From a bacterium (GTDB lineage: Bacteria > CAIJMQ01 > JAADFP01): a DNA stretch of 5,186 nucleotides. Below are positions 591 to 5,107 of the stretch, piece after piece (position 1 is the first letter of the stretch; each line of letters starts with the position of its first letter). The notes beneath the pieces are model-generated. The model ran no database searches. It was not told where the DNA came from and saw only the letters and a list, made by a program, of their open reading frames with translations. The stretch lies in contig JALUVB010000301.1 in assembly GCA_027021085.1 (NCBI GenBank), forward strand, positions 1 to 5,186, read 5' to 3'. The translations under genes and the position numbers were made by a program.

Positions 591-3329
591 ATGGGTTACA
601 ACAAAACACTCAACCTGCCCCGCACATCTTTCCCTATGAAAGCCAACCTGCCGCAAAGAGAGCCTGAATTCCTGAAATTCTGGGAAGAAAACGGAATTTA
701 CCGCAAAATGCTCCAGGGAAAGGAGAAAAAATATATACTGCATGACGGGCCACCCTATGCCAACGGCGATATACACCTGGGACAGGCTTACAATAAAATC
801 TTGAAAGATATCGTAATGAAAAGCAAAGCACTTTTCGGGTATGCTACTCCTTACATACCGGGATGGGACTGTCATGGCCTGCCGGTAGAACTGCAGTTGC
901 TGAAAAAACTGGGGAAGAGGAGAAAAAGCGAGGTGGACATTTTACCTTTCCGTAAAAAAGCCAGGGAATATGCCTTAAGTTTCGTAAACAGGCAGAAAAA
1001 AGAATTCAAGCGGCTGGGTATTCTGGGAGAATGGGATACCCCCTACCTCACCATGAATTACTCCTACCAGGCAAAGATAATGGAAGCCTTTCTGCTCCTT
1101 TACGAGAAGGGGTATATCTACAGGGCGGAAAAGCCTATATATTGGTGCATCGAATGCGAGACAGCCCTGGCAGAAGCAGAGATAGAGTACGAAGAAAAAG
1201 TATCTCCCTCCATCTGGGTGAAATTCAAGGTAAAAAATGCGGGCAAACATTCCCTGCCTGCTTCTTCCTTCATTTTAATCTGGACCACCACTCCCTGGAC
1301 CCTCCCCGGCAACCTGGCAGTTGCCCTTCATCCAGAAGAATACTATCTCTGGATAAAGAGGGGAGAAGAAACCTGGCTGGTGGCAGAGAAGGCCAGGTCG
1401 CGTGTAGAAGAGGAGACAGGTTTTAAGTTAGGAACAGCTTCAAAGCGCATACAGGGGAAAGACCTGGAAGGTATCGAATACCAGCATCCGCTCTTTCCCG
1501 AAGCTAAAGGAATTATCGTTCTTGCACCTTACGTAAGCATGGAAGAAGGCTCAGGATGCGTGCATACTGCGCCGGGGCACGGGGAAGAAGATTTTCATAC
1601 CGGGGAAAAATACAGGCTTCCGCCTTTCTCACCCGTAAATGAAAAGGGTTATTTTAACGATAAGGCAGGAGAACTCAGCGGGCTCAGGGTAGATAAGGCA
1701 AACCCGATTATCATCCAAAGGTTAGAGAAAGACGGGGCCCTGGTTAAAGAAGGAGAAATTACCCATACTTATCCCCACTGCTGGAGGTGTAAAAAGCCTA
1801 TTATATTCCGTGCTACCACGCAGTGGTTCATGGGAGTAGAGAGGCACAATTTAAGAAAGCTTGCCCTGGAAACGGTAAAAAAGGTAAGGTGGGTGCCTTC
1901 TGCTTCGGAGAATAGAATCAGGGGGATGCTGGAATTACGACCCGATTGGTGTCTTTCCCGGCAGAGGTTATGGGGTATTCCCATACCTGCTTTTCATTGC
2001 AAGAATTGCGGGAGGGTGGTAGCAGAACAGGCAATTCTTGCTCCCATACTGGAAAAAGTAAAAGAGGAAGGCGTGGACTTCTGGTTTGAAAAAGAGGAGA
2101 AAGAGTTACTGCCCCAAGACTTTGCCTGTCCGCAATGCGGAAAGAAAGAATTCCGAAAAGAGACGGACATACTTGACGTGTGGATGGATTCCGGGGTGAG
2201 TCATTTTGCCGTGCTAAAAGAAAGAGGGGATAATTTCTGGCCGGCGGATATGTATCTGGAAGGAAGTGACCAGCACAGGGGATGGTTTCAAACCTCGCTT
2301 CTCACTTCTCTGGGACTATTTGGTGCTCCCCCCTACCGGGAAGTACTCACCCATGGGTTTGTGGTGGACAGCGAGGGAAAGAAAATGTCCAAATCCCTGG
2401 GAAACGTGGTGGACCCGCAGGATACGGTAAAAAAATACGGTGCAGAAATACTGCGTCTCTGGGTAGCCTCCACGGACTACTCCCGGGACATGAGAGTTTC
2501 GGAAGAAATCATCAAAGGCACTATAGATGCCTACCGCAAGATAAGAAACACGTGCAGATTTATCCTGGGAAACCTGTGCGATTTCTCTTTTTCCCGGGAT
2601 GCCCGGCCAAAAGAATCCTGGTGGGCAATAGATGCCTGGGCTTACAACCGGCTTCAGAAGCTCACAGAAAAAGTTTTGAAATTTTACCAGGATTACGAAT
2701 TCATCCGGGCTTTCCAGGAGCTGTACCAGTTTGCCGTTAACGATTTAAGCTCCTTATACCTGGATATACTAAAAGACAGGCTTTATGTCTTCCCGGCCAA
2801 TTCGACGGCGCGCCGGTCTGCCCAGAGCGTTCTGTATATAATTTTAAGAGATTATACAAAACTTATGGCTCCCTTCCTCTCTTTCACCGCAGAAGAAGTC
2901 TGGAAACATCTTCAGGAGAAAGAGGAAAGCATCTTCCTTTCCCGCTTTCCCTCTCCTGACGGGGTGGACGAGGAAGCAGAAAAAAAATGGCAGAAATTCT
3001 GGGCTATGCGGGAAAAGGTTTACCAGGCCCTGGAAGAAGCAAGGAAAAGCAAGGTAATAGGTGGCTCACTGGAAGCCAGGGTCAGTATTACCCTTAGCCA
3101 GGAAGAAGAGAAATTCATGCGAGAGTTTATCCAGGATTTGCCCATGCTTTTTATCGTTTCCCAGGTAGAAGTTAAAAAGGGTAACAAATGGGAAGTGAAA
3201 GTAGAGAAAGCATCCGGAGAAAAATGTGAACGCTGCTGGATGTGGTCAGAAACAGTAGGAGAAGACTTAGAACATCCTAATATATGTTCCCGTTGTAGCA
3301 GTTTTTTAAGGGAGGTAACCAATGCTTAA
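591..3329 (+). CDS. ileS: Isoleucyl-tRNA synthetase, bacterial type with C-terminal zinc finger
   Basis: A 912-residue, full-length class I synthetase that charges tRNA-Ile with isoleucine in the cytoplasm. Visible in order: the N-terminal NLPRTSFPMKANLPQREPE; the HIGH-type motif at H62-L-G-Q65; GWDCHGLP at 91-98; the CP1 editing domain with WTTTPWTLPGN from W231 and GSGCVHTAPGHGEED at 320-334, including the editing aspartate D334; CWRC (C397, C400); DWCLSRQRLWGIPIP; a CP2 cysteine set C470/C473 and C513/C516; KMSKS at 598-602; and the C-terminal zinc finger C879/C882…C899/C902. KMSKS followed by LGN, together with the zinc finger, indicates the common type 1 enzyme (the usually mupirocin-sensitive class) rather than the eukaryote-like type 2. 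The start at 591 has AGAGGA at 578-583. The oddity is Gln65 where the motif usually ends in His. The stop overlaps the next gene by 8 bases. No T-box leader is visible in the short upstream gap. Confidence 0.98.
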   Translation: MGYNKTLNLPRTSFPMKANLPQREPEFLKFWEENGIYRKMLQGKEKKYILHDGPPYANGDIHLGQAYNKILKDIVMKSKALFGYATPYIPGWDCHGLPVELQLLKKLGKRRKSEVDILPFRKKAREYALSFVNRQKKEFKRLGILGEWDTPYLTMNYSYQAKIMEAFLLLYEKGYIYRAEKPIYWCIECETALAEAEIEYEEKVSPSIWVKFKVKNAGKHSLPASSFILIWTTTPWTLPGNLAVALHPEEYYLWIKRGEETWLVAEKARSRVEEETGFKLGTASKRIQGKDLEGIEYQHPLFPEAKGIIVLAPYVSMEEGSGCVHTAPGHGEEDFHTGEKYRLPPFSPVNEKGYFNDKAGELSGLRVDKANPIIIQRLEKDGALVKEGEITHTYPHCWRCKKPIIFRATTQWFMGVERHNLRKLALETVKKVRWVPSASENRIRGMLELRPDWCLSRQRLWGIPIPAFHCKNCGRVVAEQAILAPILEKVKEEGVDFWFEKEEKELLPQDFACPQCGKKEFRKETDILDVWMDSGVSHFAVLKERGDNFWPADMYLEGSDQHRGWFQTSLLTSLGLFGAPPYREVLTHGFVVDSEGKKMSKSLGNVVDPQDTVKKYGAEILRLWVASTDYSRDMRVSEEIIKGTIDAYRKIRNTCRFILGNLCDFSFSRDARPKESWWAIDAWAYNRLQKLTEKVLKFYQDYEFIRAFQELYQFAVNDLSSLYLDILKDRLYVFPANSTARRSAQSVLYIILRDYTKLMAPFLSFTAEEVWKHLQEKEESIFLSRFPSPDGVDEEAEKKWQKFWAMREKVYQALEEARKSKVIGGSLEARVSITLSQEEEKFMREFIQDLPMLFIVSQVEVKKGNKWEVKVEKASGEKCERCWMWSETVGEDLEHPNICSRCSSFLREVTNA

Positions 3330-3699
3330 AGAGAAGGATATAAAAATATTGCAGAAAAAACTTCTGGATATACGGAAAAAAGTAGGAGCAGAGCTCAACG
3401 AATTAGAGAAAGATATCATGAACAAAAGCTTAAAAGAAGCCTCTGGTGAATTGTCCTCCTATTCCATCCATTTTGCCGACCTGGGAAGTGATGCTTCAGA
3501 GAGGGACACAGAGATAGAAGCAATGGAGACAGAAAGGAATATTGTAGAAAAAATAGACGAAGCCTTAAAGAAAATTGAAGAAGGAAATTACGGAATATGC
3601 CAGGCATGCGGTAATGAAATACCTCTATCCAGGCTGAAGGCTATCCCCTATGCCAACCTCTGCAAAGAATGTAAAGTGAAGGAGGAACAATCTGCTTAA
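3322..3699 (+). CDS. DksA/TraR-family C4 zinc-finger protein
   Basis: A 125-residue protein with a charged, coiled-coil-like N-terminal half (about residues 3-88) followed by a C4 zinc finger: C93-x2-C96 (GICQACGNEIP) and C114-x2-C117 (NLCKEC). The zinc-finger layout and the preceding VEKIDEALKKIEEGNYGIC closely follow DksA, which enters the RNA polymerase secondary channel and works with ppGpp. The coiled-coil tip reads HFADLGSDASERD (residues 50-62). It has acidic residues D53 and D57, but not the exact DxxDxA spacing of E. coli DksA, so I assign the family and not the dksA symbol. Its role at RNA polymerase is an inference. SD GGGAGG at 3310-3315 lies within ileS, the ATG overlaps the ileS stop, and its own stop overlaps the lspA start. 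Tight coupling to the synthetase upstream and the lipoprotein genes downstream is therefore likely. Confidence 0.9.
   Translation: MLKEKDIKILQKKLLDIRKKVGAELNELEKDIMNKSLKEASGELSSYSIHFADLGSDASERDTEIEAMETERNIVEKIDEALKKIEEGNYGICQACGNEIPLSRLKAIPYANLCKECKVKEEQSA
3681..3694 (+). promoter_or_regulatory. Ribosome binding site that fixes a CTG start for lspA
   Basis: GGAGG at 3681-3685 is followed by six bases and then CTG at 3692-3694, the first codon of a frame that continues into LspA. The previous junction (GGAGG 3311-3315, six bases, ATG 3322) has the same spacing, and both starts read nTGCTTAAA. No ATG, GTG or TTG occurs in the lspA frame between the upstream stop (TGA 3677-3679) and the first conserved LspA motif, so CTG is the best-supported initiator. 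Confidence 0.75.
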
Positions 3700-4123
3700 A
3701 ATACTTTTCTTCATTCTTCCCCTGCTTGTAGACCAGGCAGTAAAATTCTACGTAGTAAAACTGAAGGGCGGAATAACTCTCATTCCCGGGTTGCTTTACA
3801 TACACACGCCCATTTTTAACCCGGGGATTGCCTTTGGAGTAATGAGCAGAAACCTGCTGCTCTCCTCTTTTCTTTCCATACTTGCCCTTTACCTTGTAGT
3901 ATTTGCCACGCTTCGCCTTCCTGCCTACCGTGTTCCTCTCTATATACTTCTGGCCGGGGCTTTATCCAATGTCCTTGACCGGATATTCAGAGCCGGAGTA
4001 GTGGATTACCTGAGCCTGAAAGGATTCCCCTGGTCATTTAATATAGCTGATACCTTTATAATCTGGGGCACCCTCCACTATTTAATAATTTCCATGCGTA
4101 AAGATGTATCAAATACTGTTTAA
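3692..4123 (+). CDS. lspA: Lipoprotein signal peptidase (signal peptidase II), CTG start
   Basis: An inner-membrane aspartyl protease that removes the signal peptide of prolipoproteins after Lgt has lipidated the lipobox cysteine. From CTG 3692 the product is 143 residues, slightly short for the family (usually about 150-165). Conserved blocks: V13-D14-Q15-xx-K18 at the end of the first membrane segment; N43-P-G-I-A-F-G49; the first catalytic aspartate block ALSNVLDR with D96; VVDYL; and FNIADTF with the second catalytic aspartate D120. Four hydrophobic segments can be seen. Starting at the first conventional codon (TTG 3791) would delete the first transmembrane helix and the DQ motif, so the longer frame is preferred. 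The usual GNxxDR is SNVLDR here, a mild substitution. The start overlaps the upstream gene by 8 bases and the 3' end overlaps lgt by 20. Confidence 0.92.
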   Translation: MLKILFFILPLLVDQAVKFYVVKLKGGITLIPGLLYIHTPIFNPGIAFGVMSRNLLLSSFLSILALYLVVFATLRLPAYRVPLYILLAGALSNVLDRIFRAGVVDYLSLKGFPWSFNIADTFIIWGTLHYLIISMRKDVSNTV

Positions 4124-4865
4124 AATCGGTCACTTCACCATTTATACTTATGGTATATTTGTTGCCCTGGGATTCTTTTTGTCATTTCTTCTTGCCTGGA
4201 AAGAAAAAGAGAATTTTCAGGTAGAGGGAGAATTCCTGGGCAATCTCTGGATGATACTTATCATAGCCGGATTGGCCGGAGGGAAATTGCTGTTCATTAT
4301 TCTACATCTGCCTGCCTTTCTCTCCAATCCCGCCAGTCCGGAATTCTGGCGAGGGGGATTTGCCTTCTTAGGAGGATTTTTCACTGCCCTCCTCTTCGCT
4401 TCTATTTACATACGTAAATGCGGCTATTCCATTCCCCGTATTTCTTACTTCCTGACGCCTTACATACCGCTGGGACAGGCCATAGGCAGGATAGGATGTT
4501 TCTTCAACGGCTGCTGTTATGGAAAACCCACCAGCATGCCCTGGGGCATGACTTTTCCCCTCTCCTCTCCGGCAGGATACCATTACGGACTAATCCCCAT
4601 ACACCCAACCCAGCTCTATGCCTCTGTATTTAACTTTGTGCTCTTCCTCTTTCTCTGGAAACTGCGGAACCATGGCTATCAGAAATTCAGGTTATTCCCT
4701 CTATACTTTCTCATCTACATAACCTTCCGTGCCTTGCTTGATATTCTGCGGGGAGATACTATCATCCTTATCGGCAATTTAACTGTATTGCAATTTTTTA
4801 CTCCTCTCCTGCTTACCCTGGGTTTTCTCTGGTGGAGGAAATGGAAAAGCGAGGAGGGAGAGTGA
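4104..4865 (+). CDS. lgt: Phosphatidylglycerol–prolipoprotein diacylglyceryl transferase
   Basis: A 253-residue polytopic inner-membrane enzyme that transfers diacylglyceryl from phosphatidylglycerol to the lipobox cysteine, the step before LspA. The N-terminus ILFKIGHFTIYTYGIFVALGF is typical of the family. Further motifs: FWRGGFAFLGG at 81-91; the signature G128-R-I-G-C-F-F-N-G-C-C-Y-G140, a GCCYG variant of the E. coli GRxGNFINGExWG block; HPTQLY at 167-172; and the late FRALLDILRGD (208-218). The position usually taken as E. coli His103 (HGG) appears to be Leu in FLGG, while the signature Arg (R129) and Asn (N135) are kept. The ATG lies inside the lspA 3' end and has no recognisable SD, which suggests translation by coupling to lspA. 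The last residues, KSEEGE, are encoded by DNA that matches a heptamer repeat continuing downstream. Confidence 0.96.
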   Translation: MYQILFKIGHFTIYTYGIFVALGFFLSFLLAWKEKENFQVEGEFLGNLWMILIIAGLAGGKLLFIILHLPAFLSNPASPEFWRGGFAFLGGFFTALLFASIYIRKCGYSIPRISYFLTPYIPLGQAIGRIGCFFNGCCYGKPTSMPWGMTFPLSSPAGYHYGLIPIHPTQLYASVFNFVLFLFLWKLRNHGYQKFRLFPLYFLIYITFRALLDILRGDTIILIGNLTVLQFFTPLLLTLGFLWWRKWKSEEGE

Positions 4866-4911: not shown

Positions 4912-4946
4912 TAGACTATAGACTATAGACTATAGACTGTAGACTG
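4912..4946 (+). repeat. 7-bp tandem repeat TAGACTR, five units (array A)
   Basis: Three perfect TAGACTA units (4912-4932) are followed by two TAGACTG units (4933-4946). The last 18 bases of this array with its flank (4933-4950, two TAGACTG units plus GGAG) occur again exactly at 5094-5111 in array B. Such short tandem heptamers are known from intergenic DNA of several bacteria, for example the STRR repeats of filamentous cyanobacteria; whether these are related is unknown. Confidence 0.95.
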
Positions 4947-4997: not shown

Positions 4998-5020
4998 AGT
5001 TGGTATCCTGCCCACCTGTC

Positions 5021-5077
5021 ATGCCCGCCTGCTTCCCGACGTAAGGTCGGGGCGGGCAGGCCTGCGGAAGCAGGCAT
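5021..5077. repeat. GC-rich double hairpin, REP/palindromic-element-like
   Basis: Hairpin 1 pairs TGCCCGCC (5022-5029) with GGCGGGCA (5051-5058) and, inside it, CCGAC (5036-5040) with GTCGG (5046-5050), leaving a six-base bulge and a GTAAG loop. Hairpin 2 pairs GCCTGC (5060-5065) with GCAGGC (5070-5075) around GGAA, a GNRA-type tetraloop. CCTGCTTCC (5028-5036) and GGAAGCAGG (5066-5074) offer a competing outer pairing, and 5056-5065 is the palindrome GCAGGCCTGC. The ends TGTCATGCC and GGCATCCAGG resemble those of dispersed palindromic repeats such as the neisserial dRS3 type (TCATTCCC…GGGAATCCA). No T-tract follows directly, so a terminator role is weakly supported. Confidence 0.75.
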
Positions 5078-5086
5078 CCAGGATTT

Positions 5087-5107
5087 TAGACCTTAGACTG
5101 TAGACTG
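5087..5107 (+). repeat. 7-bp tandem repeat TAGACTR, three units (array B)
   Basis: TAGACCT, TAGACTG and TAGACTG follow ATTT, matching the ATTTTAGAC entry of array A. The 18 bases 5094-5111 are identical to 4933-4950. The two arrays bracket the double hairpin. Just after it, AGTGAATAG (5114-5122) repeats the nonamer at 4866-4874. Confidence 0.85.

Follow-up and report, generated by a model that had tools for sequence, protein, structure and literature searches.

Evidence for a CTG start codon of lspA in an overlapping ileS-dksA-lspA-lgt gene series of an uncultured bacterial lineage

The lipoprotein signal peptidase gene lspA in the window (the whole analysed stretch of 5,186 bases) has no usable ATG, GTG or TTG ahead of its conserved N-terminal motif, and comparison with a second species of the genus and with other LspA proteins supported its initiation at the CTG at position 3692. 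The gene stands third in an overlapping series, ileS-dksA-lspA-lgt, and we consider it highly probable that its translation begins at this CTG, probably with coupling to dksA. The features of the window are as follows.

248-544, + strand: yggT (sequence and ORF list)
591-3329, + strand: ileS, isoleucyl-tRNA synthetase, first gene of the overlapping series (ORF list; identified as recognisable sequence)
3311-3329, + strand: ileS/dksA junction, GGAGG-N6-ATGCTTAA, with an ATG start (direct comparison, both genomes)
3322-3699, + strand: dksA, a DksA/TraR-type zinc-finger gene (Pfam PF01258, E 1.6e-13)
3677-3679, + strand: in-frame TGA, upstream bound of the lspA frame, inside dksA in the +1 frame (sequence and translation; conserved in the sister stretch L031)
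3679-3685, + strand: Shine-Dalgarno sequence AAGGAGG, with the GGAGG core at 3681-3685 (sequence; core and spacing the same in L031)
3692-3694, + strand: CTG, inferred lspA start, six bases after GGAGG (no upstream canonical start; conserved in the sister species)
3692-4123, + strand: lspA, lipoprotein signal peptidase (signal peptidase II), 143 residues from the CTG (PF01252)
3791-3793, + strand: TTG, first canonical start codon of the lspA frame, rejected as the start (CTG in L031; D14, Q15 and K18 would be lost)
4104-4865, + strand: lgt, prolipoprotein diacylglyceryl transferase (Pfam PF01790, E 5.1e-50)

The codons after the TGA at 3677-3679 are AGG AGG AAC AAT CTG (3692) CTT AAA ATA CTT TTC, and the frame closes at TAA 4121-4123. 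The 37 sense codons after the TGA contain no in-frame ATG, GTG or TTG until TTG 3791, and ATG is absent from all frames between 3677 and 3793. The first-pass annotation had pointed to this gap, and both its coordinates and its codon count proved exact; the GGAGG that it placed six bases ahead of the CTG was also confirmed, with the gap at 3686-3691. Taken by itself, the GGAGG motif counts for less than it seems to, because it lies inside Lys-Glu-Glu codons of the dksA tail. About 1% of the CTG trinucleotides (148 of 14,249) have GGAGG at about the same spacing in 416 kb of our genome, taken as stretches and amounting to about a fifth of the 1.93 Mb in 307 contigs. The case for the CTG as the putative start is carried by the sister-species and protein evidence rather than by the motif alone. 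RNA structure at the lspA start was undistinctive (z -1.0).

The product read from CTG 3692 matched the Peptidase_A8 profile (Pfam PF01252) with 84 bits (E 1.5e-23, residues 8-134; cut-off 25), and the product from TTG 3791 reached only 68.5 bits, starting at profile position 36. Under the stricter NCBIfam model TIGR00077, the protein scored 60.6, below the cut-off of 73.95. Its best solved relative was 6ryo_A (S. aureus-type LspA; E 6.8e-10, residues 4-141), to which the N-terminal helix can be aligned from residue 4. We aligned the protein with its sister-species counterpart and with four distantly related LspA proteins. The invariant residues were D14, Q15, K18, N43, G45, G89, A90, N93, D96, R97, F116, N117, A119 and D120, covering the LspA motifs D-Q-x-x-K (N-terminal), N-x-G, G-A-x-x-N-x-x-D-R and F-N-x-A-D; motif position assigns D96 and D120 as the two catalytic Asp residues. 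As had been claimed, the DQ motif lies upstream of TTG 3791, with its Asp at residue 14 counted from the CTG. Initiation at the TTG would remove the first membrane helix together with D-Q-x-x-K, and according to the ORF list, gene callers limited to ATG, GTG and TTG would drop the predicted 33 residues. The ATG of lgt lies 20 nt inside lspA, and this neighbourhood fits a prolipoprotein-processing pathway with a predicted peptidase activity for LspA. The dksA product gave a yteA-type subfamily match (3.8e-29) under the curated cut-off.

The sister genome is a separately assembled Caldisericota MAG (contig JAADFP010000079.1) representing another species of the genus; the comparison within the genus comprises these two genomes only. 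DNA identity was 92% over the aligned region, with differences at about 8% of sites. The dksA/lspA junction reads GTGAAGGAGGAACAATCTGCTTAAAATACTT in our genome and GTGAAGGAGGAAAAATCTGCCTAAAATACTT in the sister species, and the CTG, the GGAGG, the six-base spacing and the bounding TGA are common to both. Conservation of the CTG and the GGAGG is partly explained by dksA, because both overlap dksA codons (Ser-Ala and KEE, respectively). The TTG at 3791 is not conserved, being CTG in the sister species, where the first canonical codon of lspA is GTG 5055 (L031), past the DQ motif. Initiation there would cost 20 residues including D14.

The two gene junctions upstream of lspA are alike. The dksA stop TAA (3697-3699) lies within the lspA start region, giving an overlap of 8 nt, CTGCTTAA. 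This dksA/lspA junction has the form GGAGG-N6-CTGCTTAA in our genome and GGAGG-N6-CTGCCTAA in the sister species; the ileS/dksA junction listed above, identical in both genomes, has the same layout including an 8-nt overlap, with A in place of the C. This likeness might be due to chance, and it adds to the case for the CTG as the candidate start. In five Caldisericota-related genomes (G002-G006; one more from the family, four from the class), a dksA-type gene likewise lies directly upstream of lspA and overlaps it; unlike in the present genus, the tail of dksA there contains an ATG in the lspA frame. A start further upstream is impossible in the present genus because of the in-frame TGA 3677, and the CTG is the only well-placed start candidate for lspA there.

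The best surviving alternative is another non-standard start such as ATA 3701 or ATT 3713, and we regard it as improbable. AUA and AUU starts are known in bacteria, and ATA 3701 is kept in the sister species; however, it lies 15 nt from GGAGG, far beyond normal Shine-Dalgarno spacing, and with ATT 3713 as the start D14 would be preceded by only six residues.

It is very improbable that LspA is instead attached to the end of DksA, through either ribosomal frameshifting or readthrough at TGA 3677. Such a fusion is suggested by the +1 position of the lspA frame relative to dksA, by its overlap with the dksA end and by the presence in this genome of a +1 frameshift gene, prfB. The dksA end nevertheless has no prfB-type shift motif, and its GCT TAA would not allow +1 re-pairing. 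Readthrough is opposed by the frequency of TGA as a normal stop in this genome: it is the commonest stop, ending 97 of the 232 sampled frames of at least 200 codons. The frame upstream of TGA 3677 showed no start of its own and merely overlaps dksA. To our knowledge, standard LspA proteins are never fused to DksA.

The absence of a canonical start in both species could also mean that lspA is a decaying pseudogene whose true start has been lost, leaving no functional LspA. The substitution pattern makes this just as hard to accept. In codons 4-33 (after the dksA stop and before TTG 3791), 14 bases differ between the species, 11 of them at third positions, with nine synonymous and three nonsynonymous codon changes (dN 0.054, dS 0.70); the remaining 110 codons gave dN 0.031 and dS 0.69. 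The dN/dS ratio was about 0.06 for the whole gene and 0.08 for codons 4-33. These values show purifying selection on codons 4-33, a stretch that evolves like a coding region read in the frame of lspA. Furthermore, the frame has no disruptions, and this is the only lspA match found in the genome.

The first-pass annotation had left open whether the gene is initiated at CTG or the assembly has A misread as C. Support for the CTG branch came from conservation of the CTG and of the Shine-Dalgarno spacing, from purifying selection on codons 4-33 and from D14, Q15 and K18 upstream of TTG 3791, and the misread branch was effectively excluded because the same C stands in the separately assembled sister genome, the orthologue in which an ATG or CTG at 3692 was to be looked for. 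The least probable of all alternatives is that an ATG is concealed by an error at 3692: the contig is short (5186 bases, one of 307) and an ATG would match the ileS/dksA junction exactly, but an identical error in two genomes that differ at about 8% of aligned sites is very unlikely. In neither of the two species could a canonical codon serve as the start, and a base-calling error is not a reasonable explanation.

For initiation at CTG 3692, AAGGAGG would position the 30S subunit at the CTG, and the initiator tRNA (fMet) would pair with CUG, tolerating a mismatch at its first position; the product would be a complete LspA of 143 residues, presumably with Met first. Because the CTG precedes the dksA stop by 5 nt, ribosomes ending dksA would probably be handed to it by termination-reinitiation, which may offset the weakness of CUG. 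From the strong Shine-Dalgarno sequence and from ribosomes terminating at a distance of 5 nt, we infer fMet initiation at CUG, largely fed by dksA. Overlapping gene pairs with an internal Shine-Dalgarno motif are widely translated by termination-reinitiation, and coupled pairs typically show short overlaps and internal motifs of this kind (PMC6728339; PMC12548453). The dksA/lspA pair resembles them in its short overlap, its Shine-Dalgarno sequence in the upstream gene and its stop no more than 5 nt from the start. The commonest gene overlaps are 4 and 1 nt (PMC12548453), whereas the putatively coupled dksA/lspA pair has an overlap of 8 nt and a CTG start.

CTG start codons are allowed in NCBI table 11. 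According to values cited in PMC11497404, CUG accounts for 0.024% of start codons in bacteria, and in E. coli it yields only 0.86% of the expression obtained with AUG. In Caulobacter dnaA, a CUG with a Shine-Dalgarno sequence was toeprinted in vitro and was unused in vivo (PMC8443254); that gene had an AUG start on offer, whereas lspA here has none. Known bacterial CUG starts share with lspA the codon, the Shine-Dalgarno sequence in front and presumed fMet initiation; the difference here is that the putative CUG start belongs to a conserved single-copy gene and is common to two species. The literature searched contained no described CTG start in lspA. The proposed CTG start is a rare instance of a known phenomenon and not a new mechanism.

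Is start-codon selection relaxed in this genus? Changes in three G-C pairs of the initiator-tRNA anticodon stem weaken discrimination against CUG. The pairs G29-C41, G30-C40 and G31-C39 were intact in both genomes, so an altered, CUG-tolerant initiator tRNA was rejected; loss of IF3 was also rejected, as the genome encodes it. With the pairs intact and IF3 present, no relaxed discrimination is evident. Nor was general use of CTG seen. Among 340 non-overlapping frames with a length of 100 codons or more in the 416 kb, lspA alone had a Shine-Dalgarno-led CTG well ahead of its first canonical start, in a crude scan that is blind to CTG starts with a canonical codon nearby; no other clear CTG start was found in this sample. 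Two further candidates were discarded: prfB, which surfaced through its frameshift alone, and L048:2147-2617, an ORF without a family match.

A CTG that is too weak for free 30S subunits would make LspA synthesis almost wholly dependent on ribosomes from dksA. That the codon is kept on purpose for this reason seems doubtful to us; if true, lipoprotein processing would be tied to the output of a DksA-type regulator. Independently of this, the comparisons offer a well-supported candidate for CUG initiation in nature, in a gene that nearly all bacteria possess and in two species of an uncultured lineage. Callers limited to ATG, GTG and TTG will annotate LspA without its conserved N-terminal motif, and the truncation differs by species (TTG 3791 here, GTG in the sister). 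The paired junctions of the series, with ATG at ileS/dksA and CTG at dksA/lspA, lend themselves naturally to the question of whether a weak start codon can be rescued by coupling.

Several further observations concern the translation apparatus. The usual initiator-tRNA mismatch is C1-A72, and the initiator tRNAs of the two genomes (L108, G000:C23; L117, G001:C22) apparently have C1-U72, with the anticodon-stem G-C pairs intact. Both genomes lack an ATG near the N-terminus of infC (IF3; L101, L102), where the reading frame begins with ATT and a canonical start codon first appears as GTG at codon 11. The +1 frameshift site of prfB (RF2) is AGGGGGTAT CTT TAA C in both genus genomes (L043:1181-1196, G000:C10; L055:1500-1515, G001:C128), with UAA replacing the usual UGA. 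Five family or class relatives have CTT TGA C, and the exact 16-base form occurred in none of the other genomes among the 98 searched. Because both RF1 and RF2 recognise UAA, the RF2-specific autoregulation should be altered, and this site is possibly more surprising than the CTG start.

An extra tRNA-like gene with the anticodon UCA, which would read UGA, adjoins tRNA-Val(CAC) and has an acceptor-stem mismatch (G000:C246:10816-10889; L083:1339-1412, minus strand). The sister-genome copy is more decayed (L088, about 1765-1835), and the gene is probably a decayed duplicate or pseudogene. This gene and the prfB site raised the idea of UGA as a sense codon. We rejected it, since TGA ends more of the sampled long frames than any other stop and the UCA tRNA resembles a decayed tRNA-Val copy. 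A search for tRNA-Sec gave nothing above the cut-off.

Downstream of lgt, tandem short repeats (TAGACTATAGACTATAGACTGTAGACTGGGAG) lie at positions 4914-4946 and 5088-5107 of the window. They recur in other intergenic stretches, for example in predicted junk frames with 'VYSLKS/VYGLRS' motifs in L130, L131 and L148. Between the two blocks, an intergenic inverted repeat-like stretch at 5013-5080, CCCGCCTGCTTCCCGACGTAAGGTCGGGGCGGGCAGGCCTGCGGAAGCAGGCATCCAG, resembles a dispersed palindromic repeat.
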